Shown here one piece after another: positions 23,759-32,212 of a stretch of DNA of 64,000 nucleotides. Each line of letters starts with the position of its first letter. Position 1 is the stretch's first letter. The notes under the pieces were generated by a model. It saw only the letters and a program-made list of their open reading frames with translations. It was not told the origin of the DNA and searched no databases. The DNA lies in the NCBI GenBank assembly GCA_947460615.1, contig CANHHG010000002.1, forward strand, positions 1 to 64,000. Direction: 5' to 3'. Source of the DNA: Bacteroidota bacterium. GTDB lineage: Bacteria > Bacteroidota > Bacteroidia > Flavobacteriales > Flavobacteriaceae. The translations under genes and the position numbers were made by a program.

Positions 23759-23783
23759 TAGTACTATGTAAAACATGGTACTA
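23759..23783. promoter_or_regulatory. 25-bp near-perfect palindrome, candidate operator for the PadR-like regulator
   Basis: TAGTACTATGT AAA ACATGGTACTA; 11-bp arms, one T/G position mismatched. Confidence 0.55.
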
Positions 23784-23850
23784 TTTAAAAGATATATATT
23801 TACATAAGAAATTACTGAAAATAATTATAGATGGATAATTGTAATACTAA

Positions 23851-23924
23851 AATCCTTAGCCCCGATTGCAGAGAAAATCCCAGGCTTTTTGCCTGGATTG
23901 AAACGGAAAGCGGGAAATAGCTCC
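23851..23924 (+). ncRNA. Candidate structured RNA / conserved intergenic element, possibly Flavo-1 RNA motif
   Basis: AATCCTTAGCCCCGATTGCAGAGAAAATCCCAGGCTTTTTGCCTGGATTGAAACGGAAAGCGGGAAATAGCTCC: hairpin 23876-23899, closing CCCG/CGGG pairing; resembles the recurring Flavobacterial GATTGAAxCGGAAAGCxGGA..AGCTCC element. Confidence 0.6.
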
Positions 23925-23951
23925 AAAAGAAAAAAATAAAATGAGAAAAAT

Positions 23952-24278
23952 ATGAATATTGAAAATACAAAAGCACAAATGCGAAAGGGAGTGCTCGAAT
24001 TTTGCATCTTATCTGTATTGAAAGAGAAAGATGCCTATACTTCAGAGATTTTAGACACCTTAAAAAAGGCAAAATTATTAGTCGTTGAAGGTACGGTTTA
24101 TCCACTATTGACGCGTTTAAAAAATGACGGATTGCTAAACTATCGTTGGGAAGAATCGATATCTGGTCCTCCAAGGAAATATTATGGATTAACTGAAGAA
24201 GGTCGTGAATTTTTAACAGAATTAAACAGCACCTGGACGGAATTATCAGGCGCTGTGAATTTAATAACAACCAAATAA
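23952..24278 (+). CDS. PadR family transcriptional regulator
   Basis: MRKGVLEFCILSVLKEKDAYTSEILDTLKKAKLLVVEGTVYPLLTRLKNDGLLNYRWEESISGPPRKYYGLTEEGREFL. Confidence 0.95.
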   Translation: MNIENTKAQMRKGVLEFCILSVLKEKDAYTSEILDTLKKAKLLVVEGTVYPLLTRLKNDGLLNYRWEESISGPPRKYYGLTEEGREFLTELNSTWTELSGAVNLITTK

Positions 24279-24285
24279 TAACAAG

Positions 24286-25968
24286 ATGAATAAGACAGTA
24301 AACATAAACTTAGGAGGATTCGTTTTTCATATTGATGAAGACGCATACCAAAAATTGACGAATTATTTTGAAGCTATAAAGCGCTCTTTGTCAAATACTT
24401 CAGGTCAAGAGGAAATCATTAAAGATATTGAAATTAGAATTGGCGAAATCATTTCAGAGAAACACACGAGTGATAAACAAGTGATCAGTTTACGAGAAGT
24501 TGAGGAAATTATTTCGATTATGGGACAACCCGAAGATTACAGAATTGAAGGTGACGAACCCATAAATGCTGAACCTATTTATAGCAATAATAAAATTAAC
24601 AAAAAACTATATCGCGATGAAGAAAATGCTGCGATTGGTGGAGTTCTTGCTGGTTTGGGTCATTATTTTGGTATTGACAAAGCAATATTAAGAGTAATTT
24701 TATTGATCATGGTTTTTGCATGGGGAACTGGAATTGTAGCCTATATAATATTGTGGATTGCAATGCCGGCAGCAAAAACAACCTCTGAAAAATTGGAAAT
24801 GCGGGGCGAAGCGGTTACTATTTCGAATATTGAAAAGAAAGTAAGAGAAGAGATTGAAACACTATCTGAGAAAATTAAATCAACTGATTTTGAGGGTGTT
24901 AAAAAAGGTCTGCAATCAAATGGGAATAAGCTAAAAGATTCATTTGGAGAGGTTTTAAGCTCTATTATAAACATTTTTGCAAAAGTAATTGGGACATTTA
25001 TGATATTAGCAAGTATTGCTATATTAGTTGTGTTTTTGATAGGTGTATTAGCTTTTGGAACGACCAATTTTGAAGGGTTTCCTTTCCATTCATTTATTGA
25101 ATTAGGAAATTTCACGGATTATCCAATTTGGTTTTTTGGAATGTTGTTCTATTTGGCAGTGAGTATTCCAAGTGTATTTGTATTATTATTAGGAATAAAA
25201 ATTATTGCTCCAACTAGTAAATCGATTGGTGCAATAGCCAAATATGTTTTATTAGCGATTTGGATTATTGCAATTGGAATTTTAATATCAATTGGGGTAA
25301 AACAAGCCTCAGAATATGCTTATGATGGAAGAGTTTATGAGAAACATACCATCAATTTGAATAAAAATGATACTCTGTATATAAAATTTAAGAACAACGA
25401 TTATTATTCAAAAGATATTAATGATTACCATGAATTTAAAGTTACTAAAGATTCATTGAGCCAAGACGTGGTGTATTCAAATAGTATTTCATTTCAAATT
25501 GATAAAACAGATGAATTAATACCTTATATAAAAATTAACAAAGAGGCTAAGGGAAATTCTTTTGAAAATGCAAAAAAGAGAGCTGAAAAAATTAAATATG
25601 GATTTAAAATAATTGGTAACCAATTGGTTTTAGATAACTATTTAATTACCAATTTGAAAGATCAATATAGAGATCAAAAAATAGAAATTAAATTATATTT
25701 ACCTAAGGGAACTTTATTTAAGGTCAATTCGAGTGTAAATAATTATGATTACTCAGACAACTCTTTTTTCAATCTACATACAAGTTCTGATAAATACGTA
25801 TATAATGTAAATGATTCTCAAGTTAAATGTTTGAATTGTCCATTAGACGAAAACGAATATGAAGATATTGAAAATGATACAACCGACCGAGTTGAAACTA
25901 CCACCGTTTCAGTAAAAGTGGGAGGGAAAGAAGTATTAGAAACAGTCACAAAAAAACCAATTAATTAA
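24286..25968 (+). CDS. PspC domain-containing membrane protein
   Basis: KKLYRDEENAAIGGVLAGLGHYFGIDKAILRVILLIMVFAWGTGIVAYIILWIAMP; further TM segments. Confidence 0.93.
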   Translation: MNKTVNINLGGFVFHIDEDAYQKLTNYFEAIKRSLSNTSGQEEIIKDIEIRIGEIISEKHTSDKQVISLREVEEIISIMGQPEDYRIEGDEPINAEPIYSNNKINKKLYRDEENAAIGGVLAGLGHYFGIDKAILRVILLIMVFAWGTGIVAYIILWIAMPAAKTTSEKLEMRGEAVTISNIEKKVREEIETLSEKIKSTDFEGVKKGLQSNGNKLKDSFGEVLSSIINIFAKVIGTFMILASIAILVVFLIGVLAFGTTNFEGFPFHSFIELGNFTDYPIWFFGMLFYLAVSIPSVFVLLLGIKIIAPTSKSIGAIAKYVLLAIWIIAIGILISIGVKQASEYAYDGRVYEKHTINLNKNDTLYIKFKNNDYYSKDINDYHEFKVTKDSLSQDVVYSNSISFQIDKTDELIPYIKINKEAKGNSFENAKKRAEKIKYGFKIIGNQLVLDNYLITNLKDQYRDQKIEIKLYLPKGTLFKVNSSVNNYDYSDNSFFNLHTSSDKYVYNVNDSQVKCLNCPLDENEYEDIENDTTDRVETTTVSVKVGGKEVLETVTKKPIN

Positions 25969-28418: not shown

Positions 28419-29177
28419 ATGAATAAAATTATTATTATTGATGACTCCTCTACTTCAAGAATAACATTGGAAAAATTTTTGACAAAAAATTTTTCTGAAA
28501 ATTTCGAAATTGTAGGAATTTGTGAAGATGTAGAATCTGCAAAAAAAGCAATTAGAGCTAAAAAACCTGATTTAGTTTTTTTAGATATCGAAATGCCAAA
28601 TAAAAATGGTTTCGAATTATTGAAAGAAATAAAAGTTATTAAATTTGAGGTAATATTCACAACCGCACATACAGATTACGCTATTAAAGCTATTAAAGCT
28701 AATGCATTGGATTATTTGATTAAACCTATTAACTTGAAAGATCTAACCATTGCATTACGAAGATATGAAAATAAAAAAATTTTAAAAGACAATAAAGATA
28801 CTAAAGTAATTATAGCAAAAACAGGAAATGAATTAATTAAAAAAATTGCATTTTCCACCGACACCGGTTACGAATTTATTAATATTAATTCAATATTGTT
28901 TTGTGAAGCAAATAGTAACTATTGTCGAATTTTCTGCGCTGATGGTCGAGAAATACTTTTAGCAAAAACGTTAAAAAATATAGAAGAACAACTAGTGGCA
29001 ACCAATTTATTCCATAGAATTCATAAATCGTACTTAGTTAATTTAAACTACATATTAAGGTTAAATAAATCAGGATCATTAGAAGTAGAACTTCAAAACG
29101 GAATTAAATTGCCTGTTTCATTTAGGCAAAAAGATAAATTCCTTAATGCATTTAAGGAGAATGTTGAAAAAAAATAG
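28419..29177 (+). CDS. LytTR-family response regulator
   Basis: Receiver DLVFLDIEMPNKNGFELL, LKAN/ALDYLIKPI; C-terminal LytTR FHRIHKSYLVNLNYI...LPVSFRQKDKFL. Confidence 0.94.
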   Translation: MNKIIIIDDSSTSRITLEKFLTKNFSENFEIVGICEDVESAKKAIRAKKPDLVFLDIEMPNKNGFELLKEIKVIKFEVIFTTAHTDYAIKAIKANALDYLIKPINLKDLTIALRRYENKKILKDNKDTKVIIAKTGNELIKKIAFSTDTGYEFININSILFCEANSNYCRIFCADGREILLAKTLKNIEEQLVATNLFHRIHKSYLVNLNYILRLNKSGSLEVELQNGIKLPVSFRQKDKFLNAFKENVEKK

Positions 29178-29194
29178 GTTGGTTGGTTACAAAT

Positions 29195-29225
29195 AAAAAA
29201 GCCTCGCAATTGCGAGGCTTTTTTA
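29195..29225. terminator. Perfectly palindromic bidirectional terminator
   Basis: aaaaaa gcctcgcaattgcgaggc tttttt between convergent genes. Confidence 0.8.
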
Positions 29226-29242
29226 TTATTTAGCAAAGTACT

Positions 29243-32212
29243 TTAAGAATTGTGCTCTTGCTCAATTCTTTTGTGTTCTGCATCTGAGATTGTATCTACT
29301 AACACTGGGGTTGCAATAAATAATGATGAATAAGTACCTACAACTATTCCTATTAACATTGCGAAGATAAATCCTCTGATTGACTCCCCACCAAAAATAA
29401 ACATGATTAACAATACAAGTATCATTGTTAATGATGTGTTGATTGTTCGTGACATAGTTGAATTAATAGATTGATTTACAATAGAATTGAAATTACCTTT
29501 CGCTTTACCTCCTAAGTATTCACGAACTCTATCAAATACAATTACGGTATCATTCATAGAATAACCAATAACCGTCAATATTGCAGCGATAAAATGTTGG
29601 TCAATTTCCATTCCAAATGGCATGTATTTCCACAATAAAGAATAAATTCCTAGTACAAAAATAACATCATGCGCAACAGCTGCAAGTGCTCCAAGTGAAT
29701 ATTGCCATTTTCTGAAACTTACCACAAGGTATAAACCAACAATTAACATTGCTCCAATAACAGCCCAATAAGAATTAGTTTTAATATCATCAGCAACAGT
29801 TGGTCCAACTTTTGAAGCTTGAAGAATACCTAATTTTTTACCATCATAACTATTAACGAATTTATCATAAGTCATTGTAGCATCAAAATGCTTTTTCAAG
29901 TTTTCAAAAAGAATTTTATTAACTGCTTGATCAGCTTCTGTTCCTGCTTCCGCTACTTTATATTTTGTAGTAATTTTTAATTGGTTGTCTTTACCAAAAA
30001 TTTTAGCTTCCGCACTACCATCAAATACTTTAACTAAATCTTGTTTCACTTCTTCAGCAGAAACTGGTTTTTCAAAACGTACTTGGAATGTTCTTCCTCC
30101 AACAAAATCTACCCCTTGGTTCAAACCGTTGGTAGAAAGTGAAATAATACTTACTACTACTACTACGCTTGAAAATATATAAGTGAATTTTTTTACACCT
30201 AAGAAATCAAAGTGGAAATTAGTAAAGAAGTTTTTAGAAAAACCTGTTACAAAAGTTAATTTGTTTCCTTTATTAATACTCCAATCTAATAATATTCTAG
30301 TAATGAAAATTGAAGTAAACAATGATGTTGCTATACCTATTAATAGTGTAGTAGCAAAACCTTGAATAGGACCCGTTCCAAAAATTAATAACACGGCACC
30401 TGTTAAAACGTGAGTTACATTCGCATCAACAATTGAACGCATTGCTCCTTTCCAACCGAATGAAGCTTTAACAGCATCATCAATAGTTTTGCCAGCACGA
30501 AGTTCTTCTTTTGCACGTTCGTAAATAATAATATTCGCATCTACCGCAGTACCCATGGTTAAAACGATACCTGCAATTCCAGGAAGTGTCAATACAGCTC
30601 CTAAACTTGCCAAAATACCGAATAAGAACAATAAGTTAATTGCTAAAGCGATGTTCGCATAAAATCCAGATTTACCATAGTAAATCATCATCCAAAGAGA
30701 TACAATTAACAAACCAATAATAGCAGAATTAGTTCCATTATCAATCGCCTCCTGACCTAAAGACGGACCTACCACTTCTGATTGAACAATTTCTGCGGCA
30801 GCTGGTAATTTACCTGCTCTTAATACGTTAGCTAAATCTTTAGTTTCAGTGATATCAAATGTTCCTGAAATTTCAGATCTTCCGCCTGAAATTGGTCCGC
30901 TTGAAACCCCTGGCGCAGAATAAACTACATCATCTAATACTATTGCAATATTACTTTTTTGTGTATACGCTCTTCCTGTTAATTCCTCCCAAGCTTTAGC
31001 TCCTTGTCCACTCATTTGCATAGTAACAGATGGCTTTCCTAATTGATCAAAAGAATCTTTGGCATCAGTAACTACTCCACCGCTCATAGCAGCTTGATTA
31101 TCTCTATTACCTTTTAAAGCATATAATTCAACTGTTTCGGTTGCTTTTTTTGTTTTTTCATCAACGATTGATGTAGGCTTACCCCAAACAAATTTCGCAT
31201 AACGCTTATCAGCAGGTAATAATATTCTAATATCCTGACGTTTAAAATAACCATTAATTGCAGCTGTATCTTTAGGCTCAACTACTCCCAAAATTGGACC
31301 ACCTCCACCAGGTAAAAATCTTTTCAATAATGGACCTAAATCTTTTTTATCCGATACAGTATCTTTTGCTTTATCAGTCAATAAAGTATCAATTCCTGTT
31401 TTTGCAGTTTCTTTAACTTCAACAGCACCTTTCTCAGTTATTTTCAAGGTGTTGTTAGCTGCCATTAAGAAATTACTTAATTCGTCCACTTTATAGGTTT
31501 CCCAAAACTGTAATTGTGCCGTACTTGATAATATTTTTTTAATACGATCTACATCTTTTGCCCCCGGAAGTTCAACTAAGATTCTTCCTGATTCACCTAA
31601 TTTTTGGATATTTGGTTGAGTAACTCCGAATTTATCGATACGCTTTCTTAATACTTCAAAAGCACTTTCGATTGACTCATCAACTTTTCTTCTTATTACT
31701 TTTTTAACCTCATCATCTGTTTTTTTGAAGTTCACTTCATCACCTAATATTTTGTTTGCAAAAATATCTGGAGAGGATAATTTTATTTTTCCATTAGCAG
31801 CTTTTTCAAATTCAGCAAAAAACACATCTAAATAATCTTGATTTCCTTGTCTGTTTTTTGATGCTTCAGCTAAAGCTTGATTGAAAATTGGATTTTTAGA
31901 ATTATTAGATAATCCTTTAATAATGTCTTTAACAGAAATTTGAAGTTGTACATTTATACCACCCTCTAAGTCTAATCCTTTGTTGATTTTTTTGTCTTTT
32001 ACTTCATTGTAAGTAAAATCTGTAAATCCAAGATTAAATACTTTCTCTTTTCCAATTGAATCTAAATATTTTAATTCTTTATCAGAATTACCATTAGCAT
32101 AGGTTTTGGCATCACTTTCTATTTTTTGTGAAATAAAAGTGAATGAAAGTTGGTAAATGCTCACCAATGCAAATAAAATTGCGAAAAATTTAATAAGTCC
32201 TCTATTCTGCAT
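29243..32212 (-). CDS. secDF: Fused protein translocase subunit SecDF
   Basis: 989 aa; SecD part GLDLEGGINVQLQISVKD..., GTAVDANIIIYERAKEE; SecF part GVDFVGGRTFQVRF, GYSMNDTVIVFDRVRE. Confidence 0.96.
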   Translation of the reverse strand: MQNRGLIKFFAILFALVSIYQLSFTFISQKIESDAKTYANGNSDKELKYLDSIGKEKVFNLGFTDFTYNEVKDKKINKGLDLEGGINVQLQISVKDIIKGLSNNSKNPIFNQALAEASKNRQGNQDYLDVFFAEFEKAANGKIKLSSPDIFANKILGDEVNFKKTDDEVKKVIRRKVDESIESAFEVLRKRIDKFGVTQPNIQKLGESGRILVELPGAKDVDRIKKILSSTAQLQFWETYKVDELSNFLMAANNTLKITEKGAVEVKETAKTGIDTLLTDKAKDTVSDKKDLGPLLKRFLPGGGGPILGVVEPKDTAAINGYFKRQDIRILLPADKRYAKFVWGKPTSIVDEKTKKATETVELYALKGNRDNQAAMSGGVVTDAKDSFDQLGKPSVTMQMSGQGAKAWEELTGRAYTQKSNIAIVLDDVVYSAPGVSSGPISGGRSEISGTFDITETKDLANVLRAGKLPAAAEIVQSEVVGPSLGQEAIDNGTNSAIIGLLIVSLWMMIYYGKSGFYANIALAINLLFLFGILASLGAVLTLPGIAGIVLTMGTAVDANIIIYERAKEELRAGKTIDDAVKASFGWKGAMRSIVDANVTHVLTGAVLLIFGTGPIQGFATTLLIGIATSLFTSIFITRILLDWSINKGNKLTFVTGFSKNFFTNFHFDFLGVKKFTYIFSSVVVVVSIISLSTNGLNQGVDFVGGRTFQVRFEKPVSAEEVKQDLVKVFDGSAEAKIFGKDNQLKITTKYKVAEAGTEADQAVNKILFENLKKHFDATMTYDKFVNSYDGKKLGILQASKVGPTVADDIKTNSYWAVIGAMLIVGLYLVVSFRKWQYSLGALAAVAHDVIFVLGIYSLLWKYMPFGMEIDQHFIAAILTVIGYSMNDTVIVFDRVREYLGGKAKGNFNSIVNQSINSTMSRTINTSLTMILVLLIMFIFGGESIRGFIFAMLIGIVVGTYSSLFIATPVLVDTISDAEHKRIEQEHNS

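Follow-up and report, generated by a model that had tools for sequence, protein, structure and literature searches.

The Flavo-1 element upstream of padR is one copy of a dispersed intergenic repeat with evidence for a strand-specific fold

The window analyzed here, a 64,000-nucleotide stretch of a Flavobacteriaceae genome (G000), contains a padR gene followed by a pspC-like gene, and the region upstream of padR holds an inverted repeat, a promoter-like box and a copy of the Flavo-1 motif (Table 1). The inverted repeat lies directly upstream of the -7-like box, and similar repeats precede padR in several members of the genus; judged from its sequence, it is a candidate site for PadR autoregulation. 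The -7-like box, which reads TATATTTG in the sister species, would place the padR transcription start near 23809 and the Flavo-1 copy inside the predicted 5'UTR. Two minus-strand ORFs covering the element, which looked spurious to the first-pass annotation, matched no Pfam family and are both antisense to padR, in support of that judgement. Elsewhere in the window, sub-threshold Leu_leader matches on both strands at 29099-29260 (33 bits, cut-off 50) probably come from an inverted repeat and not from a leader.

Table 1. Features of the padR region and of its Flavo-1 copy (window coordinates)
Feature	Position	Strand	Basis
Candidate PadR operator, inverted repeat AGTACTATGT-AAA-ACATGGTACT	23760..23782	+	read from sequence
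Predicted promoter -7-like box TATATTTA (Bacteroidota TAnnTTTG)	23795..23802	+	likeness to TAnnTTTG
Flavo-1 core match (RF01705, model 1-76)	23854..23921	+	cmscan 57.7 bits, Rfam gathering cut-off 42
Outer helix AGC 23858-23860 / GCT 23920-23922	23858..23922	+	84-87% of cells paired, few changes; DNA-parameter fold forms helix
Helix P1, CCCG 23861-23864 / CGGG 23911-23914	23861..23914	+	covariation among copies
Conserved core GATNGNAGNG (23864-23873) / CGNANAGC (23904-23911)	23864..23911	+	copy alignment
Variable hairpin P2, bulged C (23880), T5 loop (23886-23890)	23877..23898	+	replaced or compensated between species
Conserved 3' tail, CC + A-rich tract	23923..23936	+	position-specific composition, 78 copies
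padR (Pfam PadR)	23952..24278	+	PF03551, E 5e-19
pspC-like gene	24286..25968	+	PF04024, PF22571, PF22744

The 74-nt sequence singled out in the first-pass annotation is found letter for letter at 23851-23924, its end lies 27 nt before the padR ATG (23952) as described there, and both the CCCG/CGGG pairing and the enclosed hairpin (23876-23899) were confirmed. The suggested likeness to Flavo-1 was borne out by the covariance-model search proposed along with it: the complete RF01705 model aligned to the plus strand when the whole window was scanned against Rfam (E 6e-10). Conservation extends slightly beyond the unit first drawn (approximately 23854-23936), the whole reading YYTAGCCC...GGAAATAGCTCC plus an A-rich tail. 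The single-sequence RNA fold of this copy is unremarkable, many shuffled sequences folding as well (z -0.95), and when folded as DNA the plus strand gave z -1.61 and the minus strand -0.36; thus, the evidence for structure is comparative.

Covarying pairs, which the first-pass annotation had advised looking for among homologous copies, are present in P1, the core and the hairpin. Among 39 copies, two-sided changes occur in 126 cells versus 36 in shuffles, and 90% of cells are paired versus 30-42% when slid; 67 copies from other species replicate this result (213 two-sided cells versus 55) and follow the same plan. In this plan, an outer AGC/GCT helix, which is absent from the Rfam consensus structure and carries a 3'-side bulge AAATA (23915-23919 in the padR-site copy), is followed by P1 (CCNG/CNGG), the core GATNGNAGNG / CGNANAGC, and a hairpin that contains a bulged C and otherwise varies freely in sequence; the 3' end of the unit reads GCTCC before the A-rich tract. 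For the P1 pair 23863-23912, all four Watson-Crick types are found among copies. The core consists of near-invariant juxtapositions A.G, G.A and A.G (A14.G80 in 39/39, G17.A77 in 31/39 and A19.G75 in 36/39 copies) around a covarying N-N pair (23867-23908; AU, UA, GC or CG). We regard both the Flavo-1 identity and the fold at the padR site as real with high confidence. The hairpin tip behaves as if any inserted hairpin were tolerated. In L030, L189, L172 and other copies, the tip sometimes bears a second palindromic repeat, e.g., ATTGNGAGG..CGAAGCAAT or GTTGCC..GGCAAC.

The padR-site element is a genuine copy of an already known family and one of several dozen in its genome. The assembly as searched (2.11 Mb, 109 contigs, 88% complete) contains 48 Flavo-1 matches at E<=1e-3, all of them intergenic and 33 over the cut-off. 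Another copy in this genome is found just past the right edge of the window (G000:C2:65800-65883, minus strand). All 17 sampled relatives from the genus, which is probably Flavobacterium, carry Flavo-1, with 4 to over 100 copies each; of 11 genomes sampled from other families of the order, nine lack it and the remaining two contain 14 and about 40 copies. No match was obtained in 14 control genomes, and blastn of the padR-site copy against phage and plasmid collections returned no match in either. Three subtypes were distinguished in the genome, CCCNGAT...GGAAATAGCTCC (including the padR-site copy), GCGTGAGGGAT...AGCCCGACC and GATNGAAGGGA...GGATTNGGAATGATAGC. A second subtype, represented by copies 29, 32, 33, 34, 36, 39 and 45, has the outer sequence GCGTGAG..GACC and shares the core, but its P1 differs and its 3' bulge is longer.

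Comparison with the sister species (G097) revealed that 24 of 30 G097 copies occupy the site of a G000 copy in the same orientation, the flanks being mostly 83-93% identical where alignable. The 23 aligned same-site pairs contain 36 two-sided stem changes, 30 of them still paired, versus 7.7 expected under independence; wholesale replacement (4-5 of the 23 sites) could imitate compensation at those sites, and with four sites of wholesale replaced hairpins set aside 9 changes remain versus 1.9 expected, 8 of them paired. At five of the 23 sites, four of them clear, the copy is closer to a paralogue than to its orthologue, which suggests exchange in place. At one other site two species carry a copy and three do not, and a further site holds a decayed remnant. 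These comparisons show that the fold is maintained by compensatory change at fixed sites, and that most sites are inherited, with copies now and then gained, lost or exchanged wholesale in place. At the orthologous sites L001/L222, L031/L218, L006/L230 and L030/L231, the entire element has been swapped for another subtype between unchanged flanks.

Relative to genes, 39 copies are in sense and 59 in antisense orientation (p 0.05). Isolated hairpin mismatches read on the Rfam strand are 42 G.U to 5 A.C in the larger set without duplicate sites and 35 to 6 in a smaller count, both based on symmetric arm alignment, a procedure used in place of folding the two strands separately, which counts alternative pairings and gave 66:66 for G.U. 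The family model prefers G.U to A.C, a mild ascertainment bias that is softened by a ratio of 21:3 at pairs outside those scored by the model. Where a copy is antisense to the genes on both sides, the ratio is 20:3 (p 0.0005), and antisense same-site pairs show the most compensation (19 compensated two-sided changes versus 4.4 expected). There is thus good support for the Rfam strand being the one that must fold, whatever the direction in which the neighbouring genes are read. Since this strand is constrained in antisense copies as well, a role of those copies inside the neighbouring mRNAs is excluded, which leaves single-stranded DNA or a separate antisense RNA. DNA also tolerates G.T better than A.C, so the strand bias cannot separate RNA from DNA, and antisense RNAs from unconserved promoters would yield the same bias.

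The first-pass annotation had offered two roles for the element, as part of a padR-pspC leader or as an independent RNA. As a cis-acting leader, the transcribed element would fold in the 5'UTR and modulate elongation or translation, and its position agrees with this: on the coding strand, a promoter-like site precedes it and the ATG follows it, and all 14 padR-linked copies in the genus are in sense, with the ATG 22-139 nt downstream. However, a conserved leader is contradicted by 76 of the 90 padR loci examined in the genus, which have no Flavo-1. The 14 copies fall into two contexts, lying between padR's own promoter-like site and its ATG in three genomes (G000, G097 and G014) and between the upstream gene and padR at the other eleven loci, and in G101, G107 and G008 the corresponding spacer is present without the element; a conserved leader function is thus unlikely. 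We discounted the uniform sense orientation at padR, since two contexts probably reflect few insertions. Copies elsewhere are as often antisense, with the fold of the same strand kept, and we consider a regulatory leader improbable. There is good evidence that Flavo-1 is not padR-specific, and in the padR 5'UTR it is probably a passenger, which may still give that mRNA a modest RNA hairpin; padR should not be annotated here as riboregulated. The proposed independent RNA, generalized to a family in which every copy yields a short trans-acting or antisense RNA from the Rfam strand, would accord with the strand bias of the fold and with the sRNA type assigned by Rfam, and antisense RNAs have been reported in Flavobacterium psychrophilum (PMC9723704). 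In the 70 nt upstream of the copies we found no promoter conserved at a fixed distance (TAnnTTTG occurs in 4 of 83 upstream flanks, at scattered positions), no U-tract follows the hairpin on the Rfam strand, and the variable tip provides no single seed sequence. A transcriptome study of F. psychrophilum, moreover, found Flavo-1 hits in sense and in antisense relative to transcribed regions without distinction, and many outside such regions (PMC9723704); on transcription of Flavo-1 as an RNA, the evidence from this species is equivocal. An independent RNA thus went unsupported, and the family-wide sRNA is unlikely.

The dispersed, intergenic and palindromic copies (~50-100), the presence/absence variation at some sites and the in-place exchange of subtypes would also fit a selfish, REP-like non-autonomous element that depends for its movement on a Y1/RAYT (IS200-like) transposase. 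Y1_Tnp, however, had no match in G000 or in G004, G011, G012 and G016, which carry 12-100 Flavo-1 copies; 1 of 30 Y1 loci lies within 1.5 kb of a copy, which is not above expectation; copy positions are stable between species; and two complete genomes show no replichore bias (38 leading, 51 lagging). RAYT/IS200 mobilization was rejected because Y1 transposases are not linked to Flavo-1, and a selfish element of this kind is quite unlikely. An integron-like array was likewise rejected, the four-copy cluster in G016 not being a cassette array. Copies lie near stop codons, at a median distance of 16-29 nt, and some are 8-10 nt away from a start codon; their neighbours, by inspection of the sequences, are varied and unrelated core genes with no common theme. 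With gene calls made by a simple ORF rule, 69 copies lie between codirectional, 33 between divergent and 7 between convergent genes, close to the 73, 23 and 13 predicted from intergenic space, divergent pairs being slightly over-represented (p 0.03, with orthologous copies double-counted). An intrinsic terminator on the minus strand, serving the gene that ends beside the element, is suggested by a terminator-like site on that strand at padR and by antisense copies 10-12 nt past a stop codon; yet the T-run is only 3-4 long, the strand bias points to folding of the opposite strand, and copies between convergent genes are few (7/109), so that we regard a terminator as very unlikely. In the G012/G077/G126 clade, copies L172, L176, L177, L178, L180, L184 and L187 adjoin a repeated stretch that appears to resemble an rRNA-operon upstream region.

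We propose, with a probability of roughly 0.55, that Flavo-1 is a dispersed, vertically inherited, intergenic structured repeat that acts via its folded Rfam strand and is neither a padR leader nor an sRNA gene transcribed from a promoter of its own, the strand acting most likely as single-stranded DNA and possibly as an antisense RNA. The DNA level is favoured by the missing conserved promoter and by copies that lie indistinctly in sense or antisense, often outside transcribed regions (PMC9723704), from which we infer action on DNA with moderate confidence. The Rfam strand would extrude as single-stranded DNA during replication or repair or under supercoiling and would expose the conserved G.A-rich core to a putative protein, whereas the tip would need only to be a hairpin. 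No cognate protein was found for Flavo-1, which counts against this explanation. The more specific proposal, that Flavo-1 is no RNA gene but a single-stranded DNA structural site for such a protein, folded at fixed chromosomal sites and occasionally exchanged in place, is put forward tentatively and at less than even odds. The family has had no assigned function since its description in 2010, and a constrained strand independent of gene direction argues against leader RNA and ordinary sRNA roles, thereby making a DNA-level structure a concrete, testable alternative.

Several known systems invite comparison. Integron attC sites require a folded single strand and combine a conserved core with a variable terminal hairpin. 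By analogy only, Flavo-1 would resemble them in having a strand that must fold, a conserved core and a variable terminal hairpin; it differs in that no cassette array was seen at the copies examined. With the REP/RAYT extragenic palindromes it shares short, dispersed intergenic hairpins in dozens of copies, but Flavo-1 lacks a linked Y1 transposase, has a conserved non-Watson-Crick core and occurs both between divergent genes and in other intergenic regions. The closest relation is to Flavo-1 RNA itself (RF01705), described by Weinberg et al. (2010; PMC2864571) and counted as one of the most abundant sRNA families annotated in bacteria (PMC9029176). The padR-site element agrees with it in sequence, P1, core pairs and hairpin over a full-length match above the curated cut-off, whereas the annotated sRNA gene contrasts with the orientation-blind dispersed repeat indicated here, to whose described structure the outer AGC/GCT helix and the A-rich tail are now added.
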